A stretch of DNA of 64,000 bases from a virus. The notes beneath the pieces were generated by a model. The model made no database searches, was not told the origin of the DNA, and saw nothing but the letters and a program-made list of their open reading frames with translations. This document shows, piece after piece, positions 5,253 to 62,515 of this stretch. The stretch spans positions 1 to 64,000 of the IMG/VR virus record IMGVR_UViG_3300009182_000056; one strand, given 5' to 3'. The position numbers and the translations under genes are program-made. Every line of letters begins with the position of its first letter. Position 1 is the first letter of the stretch.

Positions 5253-5861
5253 ATGAAAAATTTTAAAGATTACTTAGCAGAAAGCGAAAGAACCTACAAC
5301 TATCGTATTAAAATAGTTGGTGATTTGCCCCAGGGATTTTACAATTCCCTCAAAGGTAAATTAGATCAGTTTGATCCCGTAAAGATTGGAGCCGAAAAAA
5401 GCACTCCGATCCAGGCCAAGCCAGCTGATTTTCCAGCATGTGAAAACGAAAAAGTTACTAGTATCGATGTAGAATTTCGTTACCCAGCTATCGAGCCACA
5501 GATCAAACAAATCGCTCGTTTACTTGGCTTAGATGAAAATAAAATTATTATGCAAACATCTGTTTACGGAGATAACGAAGCTGATTATAAAGCAAAACTT
5601 GAAGCACAAGCTGATCCAGTTTTAACAGCACCATATCCAGCAGATGATGCCAAACAAAAAGAATTGATTAAAGATTATTCAGCTGATCCATATGACCATG
5701 CTGTATTAAAAAATTCTTATCGCAGTAACTTTACCGTTGCCGGCGGCAGTCCAAAGCCTGCTGAAACAACAAATGATTTGCCCATGGGCGATGATAGTCC
5801 AATGACACACGCAGAGAAGCGTCCACGCAAGCCAGCAACTGGCGCACAACCAAGAGGATGA
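5253..5861 (+). CDS. Internal head protein candidate with capsid-targeting N-terminus
   Basis: 202 residues. The first 11 residues, MKNFKDYLAES, match position by position the capsid-targeting sequence of T4 internal proteins (MKTYQEFIAEA), ending in an L-x-E site of the kind cut by the T4 prohead protease gp21. This predicts loading into the prohead core and removal of the leader. The rest has a folded middle (YRIKIVGDLPQGFYNSL; VTSIDVEFRYPAIEPQI) and a basic, Pro-rich tail (HAEKRPRKPATGAQPRG). It follows an exact late promoter and has an AGGAAA-type ribosome site. The function after injection is unknown. Confidence 0.6.
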   Translation: MKNFKDYLAESERTYNYRIKIVGDLPQGFYNSLKGKLDQFDPVKIGAEKSTPIQAKPADFPACENEKVTSIDVEFRYPAIEPQIKQIARLLGLDENKIIMQTSVYGDNEADYKAKLEAQADPVLTAPYPADDAKQKELIKDYSADPYDHAVLKNSYRSNFTVAGGSPKPAETTNDLPMGDDSPMTHAEKRPRKPATGAQPRG

Positions 5862-5865
5862 TAAG

Positions 5866-6417
5866 ATGAGCACAACCATATTTAGAAAATATATTGATCT
5901 TATCAATGAGGTCCAACAACTTAATGAACTTAGCCCAGATTTATTGCGTAGAGCATCCGATGCCGCTGGTGCTAAAAGAACAAGTCTAGCTGGCCCAGAA
6001 AACAAAGCCGCTAGACAAAAAGCAAGTGGCCAAGAGGAAAAGTTTTATCAAGGTCAAATAGATAGATCTAATGCTAATCCCGCAGCAGGAACACAAGCAA
6101 CAGCAAACGCTTACATTGAAAAATTAAAACAAAATGGGTGGAATCAGATTACTGATCCTCAACAGATAGCACAGGCAGCCGCACGTCTTGGCTGGGACAA
6201 ATATAGCCAACCTCCGCAAGGAGTAACATGGTTTACTCACCCGCAAAACGGAGAGTCTGCATACATTGATCCTAAAAATGGTCAACTTGTTCGCTCTGGA
6301 AATGGGCAACAGCGAATAGGTCAGTCATTTGGGAATGCCAAAGCTATGCATCCACAAGCAAGTGATAGCGCAAAGTGGAATGCAAATAACCCAAACCAAA
6401 ATGTTTTTAAACCATAA
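5866..6417 (+). CDS. Putative virion-associated protein, unknown
   Basis: 183 residues, hydrophilic, Gln/Asn/Ala-rich. The N-terminus (FRKYIDLINEVQQLNELSPDLL) has two I/L-N-E tripeptides that could be gp21-type cleavage sites and the segment LNELSPDLLRRASDAA. A related segment, LDELSPDTLKSYVKKAS, occurs in the large protein at 12933-15236. A compact folded part is seen around residues 85-145 (KLGWDKYSQPPQG..., FTHPQNGESAYIDPKNGQLV). Start is preceded by GAGGATGATAAG, 4 nt after the upstream stop. Probably co-expressed with its neighbours as a prohead core or internal component. Confidence 0.5.
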   Translation: MSTTIFRKYIDLINEVQQLNELSPDLLRRASDAAGAKRTSLAGPENKAARQKASGQEEKFYQGQIDRSNANPAAGTQATANAYIEKLKQNGWNQITDPQQIAQAAARLGWDKYSQPPQGVTWFTHPQNGESAYIDPKNGQLVRSGNGQQRIGQSFGNAKAMHPQASDSAKWNANNPNQNVFKP

Positions 6418-6435
6418 TATTATATAGGATCTGAA

Positions 6436-9339
6436 ATGAACAATTTTTTTTACAACTTAAACAAAACACTGGCTAGCATTGGCAATGAACAAGAACAAAT
6501 TGCTAAGGAAGTAGCCAAGGCAGCTGAGAAGTCCCCAGTTCGTAAATCTCTCGAAGAGTCCTTACGCAGTGACATGAAGGCCCTAATGGAAGATGGCACA
6601 GGCGGAATGAACTTTAGTGGCTCAGGCTCATTAGAAGAAAAAGCTGGCTACTCTGCTAAAAAAGCAGCCGCTGGCAAAGACATCGGTAAGCCTGGCAAGA
6701 ATTTTTCTAAGATTGCTAAAGATGCTGCTGAGCGTTACGGTAGTAAAGAGCGTGGCGAGAAAGTTGCTGGCGCAGTATTGAATAAATTACGACACGCTAA
6801 GGAAGATGTTACCGACGAAGGCAATGAATTTTCAGGCGCACTAGCTAATGCTAAAAAAGATCACAAGAGTGAATTCAAAGTAGATGGTAAAACATATCCA
6901 GTACAAGAAGCCGATATGGAAGAAAGTGCTTTACAGGCCTATTTAGGTAACAAAAAATATGGCAAGCAAGGCATGGATGCTCTACGCAAAGCTGGTCGCG
7001 AGCACGCCGGTAAAGACAAAATGGATCAGATTCGCAATCGCTATGACAAGATGGACGAAACTGAAATGGAATGTGATACACCTACTCCAAGTAAAGGCAT
7101 TCCAGGCAATGTTCCTGTTAAAGGAAAAATGGATCGCTTAAAAGGCAAGCGCGACTATTATGAAACTGAAGAAGCTGACGACAGCGATGAAGATATCATG
7201 GATTATCTAAATCGTAAATTAGCTCAACACGATAAAGAGCAAGCTAAGGAAGATGCTGTATCTAAACCATATAACGGTTCTAAAGGTGATGCTGACGCAT
7301 ACAATGGTATGGAATTTGAAGGCGCTGCAATGCCACCGCCTGATGTTCCGCAGGCCGCAATTATAGCACCGTCACCAGATGCAAAATATCAAGTACAAAA
7401 ACCACAAGCTCCACAAGCAAAGACAGATATGTCTAAAATTCCTAATGACATACTACAAAAAGCAGTTGACGGTGGATACCCTGACGCAAATCCAGCATTA
7501 ATTGCGGCGGCTAAAGCAGAACTAGCAAACAGAATGAGCGGCGCAAGCAGTTACAATCCAACTGTACATAATCCTACAGTTAAAGAAGTAAGCAAGAACG
7601 GTCCGCATGGCAAACCAGGTTGGTTAATTGACGCACAGAAAAAAGCAGAAGGCGAAATTGATGAGACAATGACCCGTCAACATTTCCAACACACAGCAGA
7701 TTTGTTAAAGCATATCGAAGATCCAGCCAAGCGCATGGAACTTGCTAAACACCACGCAGGTATTTTTAAATCATCTAATCCACGATTCAATCATGAAAAA
7801 TTCATGAAGGCTTGTAATTGCGACGAAGGCATTGCTGGTCAAGCAGCTGGCACAATCGCTGGAGGGGCAATTGGCGGACCAATTGGTGCTGCTATTGGCG
7901 GCGCTATTGGTAATAATCTAACAAACGAAGAAGACTTTGAAGAAGGAATGCTTGGCTCAGTAGCTGGTGCTATTGGCGGTCCACTAGTTGGAGCGGCAAC
8001 CAATGCCATTACTGATGAAGGCTATGCTGAGATGGATGCTTGGTTAAAGCAACGTGAAAAAGAAAAAGGTACTGGTAAGTTTGACAAACGCAAAGTAAGT
8101 ACAGGTACTGTATATACACGCAGATTTGCTGACGAGCCAGAAGATGACACAGATGCGCCAATTAGTAAAGGTGGCAATCCTGCTGTTAAGCGTGGGCGCG
8201 GCCGTCCAGCGGGCACCAAAGGTGCTACTGGCTCACGAGGACCTACAGGCAAGAGTAAATTAATGTCTAAAGATGCTATCGGAGAAGAAAATGTTGATGA
8301 AGTTTGTCATCATTGTGGCCAGGCAATTCAAGAAAAAGCAGTTAGCAAAAAGCAACAACGTTTTATGGGCATGGTTCACGCCGCACAAAAAGGTGAAAAG
8401 CCAGCTAGTAAAGAAGTAGCTAAGACTGCTAAAGGCATGAAGAAAACAGATGCTGAGGATTTTGCTAGCACTAAGCACAAAGGTTTGCCAGAAAAAGTTA
8501 AATCTAAAAAAACTGAAGAAGGCAAAGGCGACGGTAATCTAGCTAATAACGCTAAACCATACGACAAAGTTACACGCGGTGATGTTATTGCTGGTCGGTT
8601 AGGTAAAGACGAAGAAGGCGGCAAGAAGAAAGTTAAAAAAGAAGAAAAAGTTGATGAAACAACAACTTCTGGTAGTGTAGCAACTGCTTCTGGAGCTCCT
8701 AAGTCTAGCAAAGGCGGCATGAAATTTGGTGGCGGCATTTATGATTCATGGAATCGCCAATATGAAACTTTATTAGCAGAAAGTGTTAATGTTAATACAA
8801 CAACAACTAAAAATGAAGAAAATCCAGACCAAGACCACGAAAGCATTACAATCACAGTAGACGGTGATGATGTTAGTCGTTTTAAACAGTTATTACAGTC
8901 TATGGGTATAACACAAAATCATAACCACGGTCGCGAAACACATTCAACAGAGCCATGCGGTTCTTGCGGTGGTATCCCTTGCCAATGTGAAGAATTAGCC
9001 GACGAAGGTGTTTTAGGTACTCTTGGCGGCGCAGCAATTGGTGGAGCATTAGGCGGACCTGTTGGTGCTGCTGTTGGTGCTGTCGGCGGACAAGAATTAA
9101 CTAAAGGTGGTTCTGGAATCATCGAAGCCGATGCTCCAGTTTCACAAAATGAGCCAGACTATCCTAGTAATCAAGAAGAAACAGATAACGCACTACAGTA
9201 CAGTGGTGGGTTGAATCGTAAAAAATCAACCGGGCAAACTACTATTCCGGTGGTTGCTAGTCAAGAAGATCGTCTACACTCCATGGAAGAGTCAGTTGAT
9301 TCATTCTTAAGTCTATACAAAGCATTTAAAACAAAATAA
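6436..9339 (+). CDS. Large modular virion protein with glycine zippers and Cys clusters
   Basis: 967 residues, very polar and Lys/Glu-rich. Modules in order: a basic segment near residue 75 (YSAKKAAAGKDIGKPGKNF, RYGSKERGEKVAGAV) seen repeatedly in phage virion proteins; acidic linkers; a folded helical part near 410-460; three Gly/Ala zippers near 475-500, 508-530 and 860-890 (e.g. AGGAIGGPIGAAIGGAIG) that could insert in membranes; and Cys clusters at ~CNCDEG, CHHCGQ and PCGSCGGIPCQC that could bind metal. A GDGNLANNAKPYDKVTRGD segment near 705 is another recurring phage module. It may be an injected or internal head protein. No enzyme domain is recognised. Confidence 0.55.
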   Translation: MNNFFYNLNKTLASIGNEQEQIAKEVAKAAEKSPVRKSLEESLRSDMKALMEDGTGGMNFSGSGSLEEKAGYSAKKAAAGKDIGKPGKNFSKIAKDAAERYGSKERGEKVAGAVLNKLRHAKEDVTDEGNEFSGALANAKKDHKSEFKVDGKTYPVQEADMEESALQAYLGNKKYGKQGMDALRKAGREHAGKDKMDQIRNRYDKMDETEMECDTPTPSKGIPGNVPVKGKMDRLKGKRDYYETEEADDSDEDIMDYLNRKLAQHDKEQAKEDAVSKPYNGSKGDADAYNGMEFEGAAMPPPDVPQAAIIAPSPDAKYQVQKPQAPQAKTDMSKIPNDILQKAVDGGYPDANPALIAAAKAELANRMSGASSYNPTVHNPTVKEVSKNGPHGKPGWLIDAQKKAEGEIDETMTRQHFQHTADLLKHIEDPAKRMELAKHHAGIFKSSNPRFNHEKFMKACNCDEGIAGQAAGTIAGGAIGGPIGAAIGGAIGNNLTNEEDFEEGMLGSVAGAIGGPLVGAATNAITDEGYAEMDAWLKQREKEKGTGKFDKRKVSTGTVYTRRFADEPEDDTDAPISKGGNPAVKRGRGRPAGTKGATGSRGPTGKSKLMSKDAIGEENVDEVCHHCGQAIQEKAVSKKQQRFMGMVHAAQKGEKPASKEVAKTAKGMKKTDAEDFASTKHKGLPEKVKSKKTEEGKGDGNLANNAKPYDKVTRGDVIAGRLGKDEEGGKKKVKKEEKVDETTTSGSVATASGAPKSSKGGMKFGGGIYDSWNRQYETLLAESVNVNTTTTKNEENPDQDHESITITVDGDDVSRFKQLLQSMGITQNHNHGRETHSTEPCGSCGGIPCQCEELADEGVLGTLGGAAIGGALGGPVGAAVGAVGGQELTKGGSGIIEADAPVSQNEPDYPSNQEETDNALQYSGGLNRKKSTGQTTIPVVASQEDRLHSMEESVDSFLSLYKAFKTK

Positions 9340-9352
9340 GGAATTAAAGTAA

Positions 9353-9850
9353 ATGAGTCAAGCCAACGTCACAGCCGGAGCATTTAGTAATGCCACTTGG
9401 TACACAGATAAAGCAGAAATTGCAACAGGAACTAATTCTGTTACATATAATGTTTATGCTGTAGCACTTACGCCGTACACATACACCACTGAAATTACTA
9501 CAACTAATACTAGTGCAGTAGTAACAACAGCTGGAACAATCTCAGTTCCGGTAGGCGCTGGCATTACTGGCACAGGTATTCCTGGTGGTGCCACTGTAAC
9601 AGCATACAGTCCCGGAGTAAGTATTACTTTAAGTGCTAATGCTACTGCCAATGGAACAGTAACAGCAACCGTTACTCCGGCACCAGTGGGTAACTTATAT
9701 TCAGCTAATCCAATAATCCCTGCTAATAGTCGCGAACAAATTTATGTCGGTGCTGGCAACAAACTTACTATCATTGGTGGTAATTCAACAGCACAAGAAA
9801 TTGGCACCGCAAGTTCAGCACTATACGGAGTTAACGCTCTTAATCCTTAA
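9353..9850 (+). CDS. Small Thr/Ala/Gly-rich virion (decoration-like) protein
   Basis: 165 residues, Thr/Val/Ala/Gly-rich beta composition without signal peptide or Cys. The central part (GTISVPVGAGITGTGIPGG, VTAYSPGVSITLSANATANG) looks like a beta-sandwich or beta-prism, as in phage head-decoration or tail proteins. Its composition resembles the 146-residue protein at 31807. AAGGA lies 11 nt before the start. The virion role is inferred from composition and the late cluster. Confidence 0.5.
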   Translation: MSQANVTAGAFSNATWYTDKAEIATGTNSVTYNVYAVALTPYTYTTEITTTNTSAVVTTAGTISVPVGAGITGTGIPGGATVTAYSPGVSITLSANATANGTVTATVTPAPVGNLYSANPIIPANSREQIYVGAGNKLTIIGGNSTAQEIGTASSALYGVNALNP

Positions 9851-9852
9851 TT

Positions 9853-10227
9853 ATGAGAGCTAACGAGTTTATTTCTGAAAGCTATAAAGGGCACGGCAAA
9901 CTTCATCCAGAGCAACAAGCTACCATGCCTCGCGCTCATAGATTTGCTGGTACCGCAGACCGCGTTTATGATTTAAATCGCGCTATGATGGCTGTGGCTT
10001 GCTCCGATGGAAAATCATTTCCACATCACGGATCTGATGCAGAAAGTTGGGTTGGGCGAAATAATCTGGCTAATCCTTTTACCGATGAAGAACATAAAAT
10101 GCTACATCATGCTTACGATGCTATTGGTATTGAAATTAATGATGCTGTAAGTCATCCTAATACAGAGCCAGACAATGTACATAAACACAGTCCAATGACC
10201 GGATTTAAAGGCTATAAAAGAAAATGA
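9853..10227 (+). CDS. Small internal head protein candidate
   Basis: 124 residues. The N-terminus MRANEFISES resembles the T4 capsid-targeting leader, with an I-S-E cleavage-type site after residue 9. The rest is His-rich and helical (NRAMMAVACSDGKSFPHH) and ends in the basic SPMTGFKGYKRK. The next gene begins and ends in almost the same way (MRAREFITEE; SPVKAFKGYPR) and overlaps this one by 4 nt, so the two look like diverged paralogues encoded as a pair. Not recognised beyond that. Confidence 0.5.
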   Translation: MRANEFISESYKGHGKLHPEQQATMPRAHRFAGTADRVYDLNRAMMAVACSDGKSFPHHGSDAESWVGRNNLANPFTDEEHKMLHHAYDAIGIEINDAVSHPNTEPDNVHKHSPMTGFKGYKRK

Positions 10228-10610
10228 GAGCTCGTGAGTTTATCACTGAAGAACGAGTATTGCCGCCTGAGCAAGCAGATCCAATGCGTCAGACTTTTAT
10301 ACTTCCTGGATTAACTTCCAGTGATCCATATCTAACTTATAGATTTGGCGTGGCCATGGCCCGTGCTAGAAGCGATGCTGTTAAAGATGACGTTAATCCT
10401 TACATATTACCGTGGGATGCAGAAGAAGTGTTTGGCGAATATGCCGTAGTAGCCGGCATAAACGGTACTGTAGATCCAATTATTGACAAGGCATTAGCAA
10501 TGACCGGTATTGGTGGCGGCAAAAAAGCCATTGGATCGTTAACGAGCCAAGAGCCACCGTCGGTAGATAAAACAAGTCCAGTAAAAGCATTCAAAGGCTA
10601 CCCAAGATGA
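10224..10610 (+). CDS. Small internal head protein candidate, paralogue of the preceding gene
   Basis: 128 residues. It opens with MRAREFITEER (I-T-E cleavage-type site) and ends with SPVKAFKGYPR, mirroring the preceding gene. The middle (YRFGVAMARARSDAVKDD) aligns loosely with the NRAMMAVACSDGK part of the neighbour. The ATGA overlaps at both ends imply translational coupling with the upstream partner and with the nuclease gene downstream. Confidence 0.5.
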   Translation: MRAREFITEERVLPPEQADPMRQTFILPGLTSSDPYLTYRFGVAMARARSDAVKDDVNPYILPWDAEEVFGEYAVVAGINGTVDPIIDKALAMTGIGGGKKAIGSLTSQEPPSVDKTSPVKAFKGYPR

Positions 10611-11308
10611 AAAAATTATTAGTAGTATTGTTATTTGTACCCTTAGCTGCTCTAGCACAAATAGCGAAAGAGTGCCCACAGTTTACGGTCAATGGTACTC
10701 CTTTATATCCAGCCAAGTTAGGCGATCAGGAAATTTGTCATACCAACTATGCTGTTATACACAAGTGCGATGTCAAAGGTCCTATAGCTGTATTTGAACA
10801 CTTAACTAAAGATAAAATTACTGGCGGATTTAAACGTCAAGATGACTTTAGACCTGACCCAAGAGTGTTTCCACAATGCCAGTCTACCCTCAAAGACTAT
10901 GCTGGACAACCATATGACCGAGGACATATGAGTCCTGCTGGTAACAATACACAGAGTAAAGAAATAATGAGTGAAAGTTTTTTCTTGAGTAACATGGTGC
11001 CACAAGTTCCTAATAACAATCGCGGCATCTGGAAACAATTAGAAACTTGGGAACGAGATTGGGCACTAGACGGAGGTGATTTTTATATTATCTCTGGTCC
11101 TGTTTTTATGCCCCATTATAAAGTAATTGGCAATGGCGTAGGTGTTCCTGATGGTTTATACAAGATTATCATCGAGCGTACATCGGGCAAAGTTATGGCC
11201 TACATGATGCCTAATGCTCCACTTCCTGTAGCAGATTTACCTAAATATCAAACAACTATGACGGCGGTTGAACAAGCAACTGGCATACAGTTTAATCTAG
11301 GCAAATAA
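10607..11308 (+). CDS. Secreted DNA/RNA non-specific endonuclease (NUC1/EndoG family)
   Basis: 233 residues. Residues 1-17 form a signal peptide (KKLLVVLLFVPLAALA, cut after AQ). The NUC1 active-site motif DRGHMSPAGNN lies at 104-114 with the general-base His at 107 and metal-binding Asn in the following helix (SNMVPQVPNNNRG). About half a dozen Cys fit an exported, disulphide-bonded enzyme. Family members cut DNA and RNA without sequence preference using one divalent metal. It overlaps the preceding gene by 4 nt and precedes the large terminase. An exported nuclease in a late operon could destroy extracellular or entering DNA or help release at lysis; the role is inferred. Confidence 0.88.
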   Translation: MKKLLVVLLFVPLAALAQIAKECPQFTVNGTPLYPAKLGDQEICHTNYAVIHKCDVKGPIAVFEHLTKDKITGGFKRQDDFRPDPRVFPQCQSTLKDYAGQPYDRGHMSPAGNNTQSKEIMSESFFLSNMVPQVPNNNRGIWKQLETWERDWALDGGDFYIISGPVFMPHYKVIGNGVGVPDGLYKIIIERTSGKVMAYMMPNAPLPVADLPKYQTTMTAVEQATGIQFNLGK

Positions 11309-28451: not shown

Positions 28452-28700
28452 ATGCAAAAGAAAACCCGCAGTTTATTAGAAGAATTAGATAGTATGTATA
28501 TCGAGCGTGATCAGCGTCATGTTATCGAAAATCGTGCCTCTAATATCATTTCTTCAGCTATTCGTTTATTGGAACAAATTGACGAAAACTATCCACCAGA
28601 GCAAGCAGAGAACCTTACCCGTAAATTAATTAATGCGATTAAACTCCGTAATCCAGAAAAATTTACTCGCACAGTAAGGAAGACCGATGCAAATTCATGA
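28452..28700 (+). CDS. Small helical hypothetical protein
   Basis: 82 residues, almost entirely helical and charged (TRSLLEELDSMYIERDQR; ASNIISSAIRLLEQIDENY). Its leader has a GCCAGA/TCTGGC inverted repeat and a late-type TAAATA (28426-28431). It overlaps the next gene by 14 nt. Unknown; conserved in related phages as far as I recall. Confidence 0.55.
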   Translation: MQKKTRSLLEELDSMYIERDQRHVIENRASNIISSAIRLLEQIDENYPPEQAENLTRKLINAIKLRNPEKFTRTVRKTDANS

Positions 28701-35485: not shown

Positions 35486-35770
35486 ATGAAAAAGATTCTA
35501 GTAATAGTATTATTAGCATTATCAACCACTTCGATGGCGCACGGGTATCACGGCGGATATTATTATAATAATAATCAGTGGGTAGGCCCTGCGGTAGCTG
35601 GAGTAGTAATCGGCGGTTTGGCCGCAAGAGCATATTACACACCTCCTCCAGTTTATGTTCAGCAACCGCAGGTAATTTACATTCAGCAATCTATTCCTCC
35701 TGGATATGTTCAACAACAGATTTTAGATGCTAATTGTAATTGTTATCGTACAGTACTGGTACCACAATAA
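35486..35770 (+). CDS. Exported Gly/Tyr/Pro-rich small protein
   Basis: 94 residues. It has a signal peptide (KKILVIVLLALSTTSMA, cleavage before HG), a Gly/Tyr/Asn-rich start (HGYHGGYYYNNNQW), a Gly-zipper-like hydrophobic stretch (GPAVAGVVIGGLAARA), a Pro/Tyr/Val/Gln-rich part and CNC near the C-terminus. It probably resides in the periplasm or outer envelope. The link with iscU, whose ATG overlaps its stop by 1 nt, is unexplained. Confidence 0.65.
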   Translation: MKKILVIVLLALSTTSMAHGYHGGYYYNNNQWVGPAVAGVVIGGLAARAYYTPPPVYVQQPQVIYIQQSIPPGYVQQQILDANCNCYRTVLVPQ

Positions 35771-36144
35771 TGGCTTACTCAGATAAGGTAATCGATCACT
35801 ATGAAAATCCAAGAAATGTTGGTAAGATGGATGCCACTGATAGCAGTATCGGCACCGGTGTTGTCGGTGCACCTGCTTGCGGTGATGTCATGCGTTTACA
35901 AATAAAGGTAGAAGATGGAATTATTACGGACGCCAAGTTCAAAACGTATGGCTGTGGGTCGGCGATCGCTTCGAGCTCACTTGTCACGGAGTGGGTCAAG
36001 GGCAAAACGCTGGAGCAGGCTGGATCAATTAAGAATGCTGAAATTGCAGAGGAACTCTGTCTCCCGCCGGTTAAGATTCATTGTTCAATCCTTGCGGAAG
36101 ACGCTATTAAGGCGGCAATAGAAGATTACATAAAAAAACAATGA
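35770..36144 (+). CDS. iscU: Fe-S cluster scaffold IscU
   Basis: 124 residues (E. coli: 128) and near-identical to bacterial IscU over long stretches. All functional residues are present: Cys37 and Asp39 in GAPACGD, Cys62 in YGCGSA, Cys105 in IHCS, and the LPPVK chaperone (HscA) recognition motif at 98-102. It should therefore work with host IscS, HscA and HscB to assemble [2Fe-2S] clusters. Part of the gene (35941-36060) is about 52% G+C against ~38% around it, which suggests recent capture from a host. The start is the ATG overlapping the previous stop; the frame extends upstream but with no better start. Confidence 0.96.
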   Translation: MAYSDKVIDHYENPRNVGKMDATDSSIGTGVVGAPACGDVMRLQIKVEDGIITDAKFKTYGCGSAIASSSLVTEWVKGKTLEQAGSIKNAEIAEELCLPPVKIHCSILAEDAIKAAIEDYIKKQ

Positions 36145-36461
36145 TTACTGTTACAGATACAGCCGCTAAAAAAATTAAAACCAATATAGAAAAACGAGGC
36201 AAAGGCATTGCCGTCCGTATAGGTGTTAGAACCACCGGATGTTCGGGCCTTGCTTATATAATGGAATATGTAGACGAGCTTACTATCGATGATATTTTGC
36301 TTTCAGATAATGGCGCTGTAATTGTAGTGGATCCAAAATCTTTACCTATGGTAGCTGGTATCACCGTAGATTATGTTAGACAAGGTCTTAACGAAGGTTT
36401 TGAATTTATCAACCCATTGGAAAAAGACCGTTGCGGATGCGGCGAGTCCTTTCGGATATAA
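36141..36461 (+). CDS. iscA: Fe-S assembly A-type protein (IscA)
   Basis: 106 residues (E. coli IscA: 107). The three conserved cysteines are present: Cys34 (TTGCSG), Cys98 and Cys100 (CGCGES). GLNEGFEFINP closely follows E. coli. It accepts clusters or iron from the scaffold and passes clusters to targets such as [4Fe-4S] enzymes. It overlaps iscU by 4 nt, so the two are coupled. No phage iscS or chaperone is nearby, so host partners are implied. Confidence 0.94.
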   Translation: MITVTDTAAKKIKTNIEKRGKGIAVRIGVRTTGCSGLAYIMEYVDELTIDDILLSDNGAVIVVDPKSLPMVAGITVDYVRQGLNEGFEFINPLEKDRCGCGESFRI

Positions 36462-61807: not shown

Positions 61808-62515
61808 ATGATGTATATTATCTTATCAACCCTGGTGATGGTTCAACTCACTATAGCTTGTGTTACCCTTTACCTACATCGCAGTCAAGCCCACAGAGGA
61901 GTTACATTTCATCCTGTGTTAGCACACTTTATGCGTTTTTGGCTTTGGCTAACAACTGGCATGATTACCGAAGAATGGGTAGCAGTCCATCGTAAGCATC
62001 ATCAAAAGTCGGATCAACCTGGCGACCCACATAGCCCCCAGATCTATGGTATATGGCGTGTGTTGTTTGGTGGTGCGTTACTTTATAAACAAGCCGCTAA
62101 GGATCGCATAATGATCGCACAGTTGAGCACTGGCACACCAGAAGATTGGATTGAACGCCACTTGTACAAAAAGTATAATACACTAGGTATCATGCTCATG
62201 CTGATCATTGATCTATGCCTATTTGGCCTATGGGGCTGGATAGTTTGGGGTGTACAGATGCTTTGGATACCATTTTGGGCGGCCGGAGTTATCAATGGGT
62301 TATCGCATTGGTGGGGTTATCGTAATGTCGATACCAAGGACACCAGTCGCAACCTATGGCCCGTAGCCATATGGATCGGCGGCGAAGAGTTACACAACGG
62401 ACATCATGCAGATGGTGCCAATCCTAAATTTAGCCAACGGTGGTGGGAATTTGATATTGGATGGTTCTATATAACTATTTTAAAATCTCTGGGTCTGGCA
62501 AAGTTGCGTCAATAA
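61808..62515 (+). CDS. Membrane fatty acid desaturase (acyl-CoA delta-9 type)
   Basis: 235 residues. Three His boxes: HRSQAHR (24-30), HRKHH (61-65) and HNGHH (~197-201), plus membrane helices in between. Such enzymes introduce a double bond in acyl chains with a di-iron centre, raising membrane fluidity. Shorter than cellular desaturases (~300), but all boxes are present. It could remodel the host membrane during infection. Start: first of two Met codons. Confidence 0.9.
   Translation: MMYIILSTLVMVQLTIACVTLYLHRSQAHRGVTFHPVLAHFMRFWLWLTTGMITEEWVAVHRKHHQKSDQPGDPHSPQIYGIWRVLFGGALLYKQAAKDRIMIAQLSTGTPEDWIERHLYKKYNTLGIMLMLIIDLCLFGLWGWIVWGVQMLWIPFWAAGVINGLSHWWGYRNVDTKDTSRNLWPVAIWIGGEELHNGHHADGANPKFSQRWWEFDIGWFYITILKSLGLAKLRQ

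Follow-up and report, generated by a model that had tools for sequence, protein, structure and literature searches.

The presence of three short, similar N-termini upstream of the TerL gene of an uncultured phage raises the question of whether the proteins that begin with them are loaded into the phage head and trimmed in the manner of T4 internal proteins. A sequence-only reading had pointed to MKNFKDYLAES (gene at 5253), MRANEFISES (9853) and MRAREFITEE (10224), and each of them was found where it had been placed. Results of our analysis indicate that these N-termini are very probably capsid-targeting propeptides that act like the capsid-targeting sequence (CTS) of T4 internal proteins.

Genome context

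The window (the whole analysed stretch of 64,000 nucleotides) comes from a 69,187-base IMG/VR virus record, which represents part of the genome of a T4-like jumbo phage. Its nearest named relative by TerL is Pseudomonas phage PA5oct (Arenbergviridae), with 51.6% identity, and viral contigs are full of TerL relatives of up to 100% identity, in records of up to 320 kb. The genes follow in the order tail sheath, two tail tubes, 3898, head closure, 4727, 5253, 5866, 6436, 9353, 9853, 10224, nuclease, TerL and 12933, after which come genes assigned as gp32-like and UvsX-like on the basis of N-termini and PA5oct gene order. The nuclease gene (10607-11308), immediately after the leader genes, encodes a DNA/RNA non-specific endonuclease (PF01223) whose N-terminus resembles a signal peptide, and several relatives have similar-looking genes at this place. 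Elsewhere in the window, neighbouring NifU_N (IscU-like, E 6e-53) and Fe-S_biosyn (IscA-like, E 8e-17) genes at 35740-36461 form an iron-sulphur cluster assembly pair carried by the phage, and a fatty acid desaturase gene (PF00487) is located at 61808-62515.

The 5253 protein and its leader

In the CTS of T4, residues 4 and 7 are needed for targeting and residues 8 and 10 for processing; Asp at position 10 stops processing while leaving targeting unaffected, and gp21 cleaves after L/I-X-E (PMC9026906). The leaders in the T4 record read MKTYQEFIAEA in ipII and ipIII, MKTFKEFTSTTTPVSTITEA in ipI and MAKINELLRES in gp24, and the corresponding site of gp23 reads FLTEA. The gene at 5253..5861 (+ strand) encodes a putative 202-aa head protein precursor, with the CTS-like leader MKNFKDYLAE (5253..5282, +) and a predicted cut after Glu10. 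The spacing of this leader is identical to that of MKTYQEFIAEA. The proposed agreement in residue class at each position holds for positions 1, 2, 4 and 6-10, and is loose for T3/N and Q5/K.

In 65 distinct orthologs of the 5253 protein, Y7, L8 and E10 are each present in 100%, F4 and S11 each in 94%, M1 and K2 are also conserved, and positions 3, 5, 6 and 9 are variable. Since the conserved residues are those that are functional in the T4 CTS, capsid targeting and gp21-type removal of the leader are well supported as predictions. When relatives were picked by body alone, the leader core was kept in 65/65, as compared with about 1% of internal windows. The site is kept in the homologs from Agrobacterium phage Atu_ph07 (MKTLQDYLTES) and Vibrio 2.275 (MKDLNTILTES); in the former (L273:6001-6088), the annotated start lies downstream of the leader and leaves it out. 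The homologs from PA5oct (MKSFRDYYDAS) and Phosso (MKNFYEYLSSV) retain residues 4 and 7 and have no full [LI]xE, which indicates that cleavage would not be universal.

The body of the 5253 protein has a weak match to PHROG 14802, a family of virion structural proteins, and the fold search with its AlphaFold model identified a ferredoxin-like, S6-like domain, ahead of which residues 4-10 are modelled, with low confidence, as helical. PA5oct gp282, which aligns to the 5253 protein from residue 1, is annotated as structural with ESI-MS/MS, a flag that comes from GenBank notes and is also attached to some probable non-virion enzymes. The gene occurs once per phage, and its body is conserved, with a mean column identity of about 0.7. 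This conservation, together with the position of the PA5oct virion protein, suggests a structural role for the body rather than that of a host-specific effector.

A second family with a leader of the 5253 type, beginning with MKSLKDYLAESE and ending with KARYWSCRAW, was noticed in relatives (L041:3201-3938; also L056, L061, L065 and L212), and no member of it was seen in the window.

The short leaders of the 9853 and 10224 proteins

The two remaining leaders, MRANEFISE (9853..9879, +) and MRAREFITE (10224..10250, +), belong to an MRAxEFIxE type that is one residue shorter than the form of 5253 and T4 and in which F6 is present, with Ala in place of the aromatic residue of T4 position 4. They precede a 124-aa internal-protein-like cargo with the C-terminus SPMTGFKGYKRK (9853..10227, +) and its 128-aa paralog (10224..10610, +). 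Both belong to a family of 89 sequences (A1), in which five of the eight invariant columns (M1, A3, E5, F6 and E9) lie within the leader.

The N-terminal placement of the short leader was assessed by scanning viral contigs for DNA coding for RAREFIxE, with no start codon required. Among the matches listed, 77 of 82 sites stand immediately after ATG or GTG, and 67 of 72 distinct sites stand immediately after a start codon when identical proteins are counted once. Across 167 de-duplicated MRA leaders, the information content drops from 4.3 bits at E9 to 0.9 at residue 10 and stays at 0.5-1.2 beyond it; the values at residues 2, 3, 5-7 and 9 are partly set by the collection pattern and those from residue 10 on are free. 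The 179 collected leaders are encoded by 151 different 21-mers with synonymous codon variation, and this constancy of the peptide over differing DNA argues for selection on the peptide.

The leader is also found when the relatives are picked by body alone. For 9853, 68 of 72 such relatives have [FYLI][ILVMF]xE within residues 3-12, and in the other four either [IL]xE lies about four residues further on or the start was mis-picked. For 10224, the core is kept in 100 of 110, as compared with about 1% of internal windows; several of the body-alone relatives lacking the core are mis-picked starts. The four proteins in which [IL]xE is displaced by about four residues toward the C-terminus (MRAREFVSTKITE, MRASEFISAQLNE, MRAREFVSARITE and MRAREFVSAVLSE) recall T4 IPI.

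The model of the 10224 protein (mean pLDDT 80, pTM 0.50) has a few helices and an unstructured leader, with pLDDT below 50 at residues 1-4, and its fold search gave no PDB match at E<=0.001. At the thresholds used, neither protein matched a PHROG and 10224 matched no Pfam family. The tblastn search of named phages gave nothing for either beyond one hit of E=0.5 in a Klebsiella phage, and no MRA-type relatives were seen in named phages.

Head maturation proteins and the capsid N-arm

The sequence-only reading had proposed looking for the gp21 protease in the rest of the genome. Searches of the 69,187-base record found neither gp21 nor gp23, which is uninformative because the record is a fragment. 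Among related contigs, every one with a full-length gp23 match also has a gp21-type protease: both families (PF03420 and PF07068) are present in six leader-clade records of a first set, and a second set of 25 records added 11 with both. In two more records of the first set, a gp23 end fragment was found and the protease is absent, and in the leader-bearing G033 (343 kb) neither was matched.

The capsid proteins themselves may suggest what this protease cuts. In 20 of 20 distinct capsid-protein N-termini of related phages, two of which (LLAE/S and MLRE/S, the slash marking the presumed mature end) were assigned by eye, [LI]xE stands just ahead of the presumed mature end, mostly as YLKE/N; this end was placed by alignment to T4 gp23 with uncertain gap placement. 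The scan for I-x-E-N-A-x-A-G-[AG]-T returned 63 places, of which six are capsid proteins and about 40 sit 5-6 codons past a start codon, mostly behind MR or MK leaders. The residues that follow (SG-[SN]-[IV]-A) match as well between leader peptides and capsid proteins. The capsid-mimic form, MR[AS]xEFIxE/NASAGATSSGSIATV, can be set beside the capsid form YLKE/NASAGSTTSGNIAT. One record, G002, has both the capsid protein YLKE/NASAGSTTSGNIAT and a peptide MRASEFIAE/NASAGGTSSGSIATV. The small basic proteins of L276-L335 have a short leader fused to a copy of the mature capsid N-arm NASAGATSSGSIATV, and this segment is internal in a few other proteins (L276, L278, L299, L302, L305 and L310).

Cargo and fate of the leader proteins

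Clustering of the 277 leader-bearing proteins by body gave 15 groups that show no BLAST similarity to each other (E 1e-3), among which some singletons may be chance matches, and at least 10 of the 15 carry the MR-type leader. In G002, four consecutive leader genes (266855-270148) are mutually dissimilar. Certain cargoes match enzyme families, namely GNAT (E ~2e-11) in G002 and LysM plus GH19 in L220, and one G002 cargo has a weak RegB match below the cut-off. The capsid gene of L163 is followed, 3.6 kb further downstream, by a leader pair. Between a tail-fibre-like gene and this pair, the record also encodes a 543-aa protein (L163:3311-4942) that has subtilase-like motifs.

The conservation of the leaders, their modularity, their N-terminal placement and the occurrence of gp21, and of gp23 with an [LI]xE site, in leader-bearing relatives together lend good support to the proposed capsid targeting and gp21-type removal for the 5253, 9853 and 10224 proteins, whose packaging and cleavage are strongly indicated by these comparisons. 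In the mechanism that we propose, N-terminal hydrophobic residues at i, i+3 and i+4 (F4-Y7-L8, or A3-F6-I7 in the short form) would attach the new translation product to the prohead core. The gp21-type protease of the phage would then cleave behind the Glu that ends [LI]-x-E, leaving the mature protein inside the head with the DNA. That the proteins dock, are cut and are present in the particle is what we infer; their injection into the host is possible, and the host-takeover or anti-defence role that the sequence-only reading raised for them is hypothetical.

On a wider scale, it is conceivable, with somewhat less than an even chance in our estimation, that such loading extends across the whole clade of uncultured, T4-like jumbo phages. 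Leaders that can be interchanged would then stand on many unrelated proteins, some of which also copy the mature N-terminus of the major capsid protein, and the head would take up small basic peptides along with enzymes, GNAT acetyltransferases for example, together with the genome, perhaps for delivery to the host. A rather less probable reading, which still deserves weight, is that the leaders dock on the prohead core or shell and that the proteins, the 5253 protein above all, serve as ordinary structural components inside the head and are never injected. This reading and the preferred explanation diverge only over what happens to the proteins after assembly. The single 5253 gene per phage, its conserved body and the ESI-MS/MS annotation of its PA5oct counterpart speak in its favour, whereas the 9853/10224-type genes differ among relatives in copy number and subtype (there are three in L013), and the cargoes that match enzymes fit delivery better than structure.

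We consider it improbable that the shared N-terminus reflects ancestry alone, with 9853, 10224 and their relatives forming one paralogous family in which it has no targeting role. The 9853 and 10224 proteins are indeed related over their whole length and have the C-terminal SPVxxFKGY in common. Such ancestry, however, does not account for the same leader ahead of at least 10 dissimilar bodies, for the sharp drop of conservation past the Glu, or for the independent leader of the 5253 family, which has the same functional spacing. As a separate observation on 9853-10610, both MRA proteins and most of their relatives end with SPVxxFKGYxR, which is nearly as conserved as the leader.

The occurrence of the same tags on more than a dozen unrelated proteins in relatives makes targeting leaders a means of listing head contents. 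For the head cargo of uncultured giant phages, perhaps injected ahead of gene expression, a nine-residue signature would allow candidate packaged proteins to be listed from sequence in thousands of contigs. The leader ends that match the likely maturation site of the capsid protein suggest, in turn, the cleavage rule of the protease of this clade.

Chance matches and weaker sites

Chance or low-complexity matching draws on the commonness of [LI]xE alone, which is present within 20 residues of 18% of internal M positions of PA5oct, a level that the sites at 5866 and 28687 do not exceed; for 5253, 9853 and 10224 it is refuted by the enrichment of the full pattern (p = 5e-9) and the ortholog conservation (65/65), and can practically be dismissed. 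The pattern M[KRQNH]x(1-3)[EDQ][FYLIM][ILVMF]xE was found in 19 of 352 N-termini beginning with M[KRQNH] vs. 7 of 1423 internal M[KRQNH] positions (Fisher test, five related records), in 1 of 3327 shadow ORFs and, in the window alone, in 3 of 29 N-termini vs. 0 of 101 internal positions (p = 0.01); since it was composed after the leaders had been seen and the five records, which include close relatives, are not fully independent, these p values give a direction and not an exact probability. The ortholog conservation tests weigh more.

The presence of [LI]xE within 20 residues does not separate the ESI-MS/MS proteins of PA5oct from its other proteins. A start class M[KR][ILTSAN]x[ED][hydrophobic] is present in 7 of 93 ESI-MS/MS proteins vs. 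3 of 351 others (p=0.001, the best of six patterns, uncorrected), and was not counted as a CTS because most of its members have no [LI]xE at the right place.

The related I/L-x-E sites suggested near the starts at 5866 and 28687 proved weak. The rare gene at 5866..6417 (+), between 5253 and 6436, has LINE and QLNE near its start (YIDLINEV..QLNELSP) and is a weak candidate: its sole full relative, L178, keeps LIxE, and L018, which has a 99% identical TerL, lacks the gene at the matching place. At 28687, RQRIDEG of the window reads RQRTDEG in the close relative G001, so the required I/L is not conserved. Neither was retained as a conserved processing site.

The gene at 6436..9339 (+) encodes a 967-aa protein that is likely a core or internal protein, to judge from homolog N-termini and from PA5oct gp281, which occupies the matching position and is annotated as structural by ESI-MS/MS. 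Its conserved N-terminus, FFYxLNK, is unlike a CTS. Of the homologs listed by this common N-terminus, 45 of 46 have [LI]xE in residues 10-40, a Glu-rich region, in most of them within about 30 residues after FFYxLNK, where the window copy reads IAKE.

Comparison with known systems

The head proteins of phiKZ-like phages and SPN3US are likewise loaded into the head and trimmed after Glu by a gp21-related protease. The motif of phiKZ is S/A-X-E, unlike the L/I-X-E after 9-10 residues in the clade described here, and most SPN3US propeptides comprise 111-254 residues, in contrast to 9-10 here (PMC9026906, PMC10052503). Our literature search, with subscription titles mostly outside it, returned no description of such leaders for this clade.

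The similarity to PA5oct concerns gp282, an annotated virion protein with a body homologous to that of the 5253 protein and a gene likewise upstream of TerL. Its leader keeps the two targeting residues (4 and 7) but lacks both processing residues (8 and 10), and gp282 is accordingly predicted to be targeted but uncut. The PA5oct paper (PMC6950013) yielded no virion peptide list.

The closest likeness is to T4 IPI, IPII and IPIII, which share with the 5253 type an N-terminal leader of 10-11 residues with [FY]4, [FY]7, [IL]8 and E10. In both cases one leader stands on unrelated bodies, a gp21-type protease and gp23 occur in the same phage group, and the site is shifted downstream in some members, as in IPI. 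The bodies of 9853 and 10224 showed no relation to T4 internal proteins in family searches (PHROG, Pfam) or in tblastn of named phages. The differences from T4 are that these phages form a divergent jumbo clade, with TerL at most 52% identical to that of named phages, and that this clade has a second leader, MRAxEFIxE, one residue shorter, and many more cargo families. What these sequence comparisons point to is a known T4 device that extends to a divergent clade and carries a wider range of cargo there.
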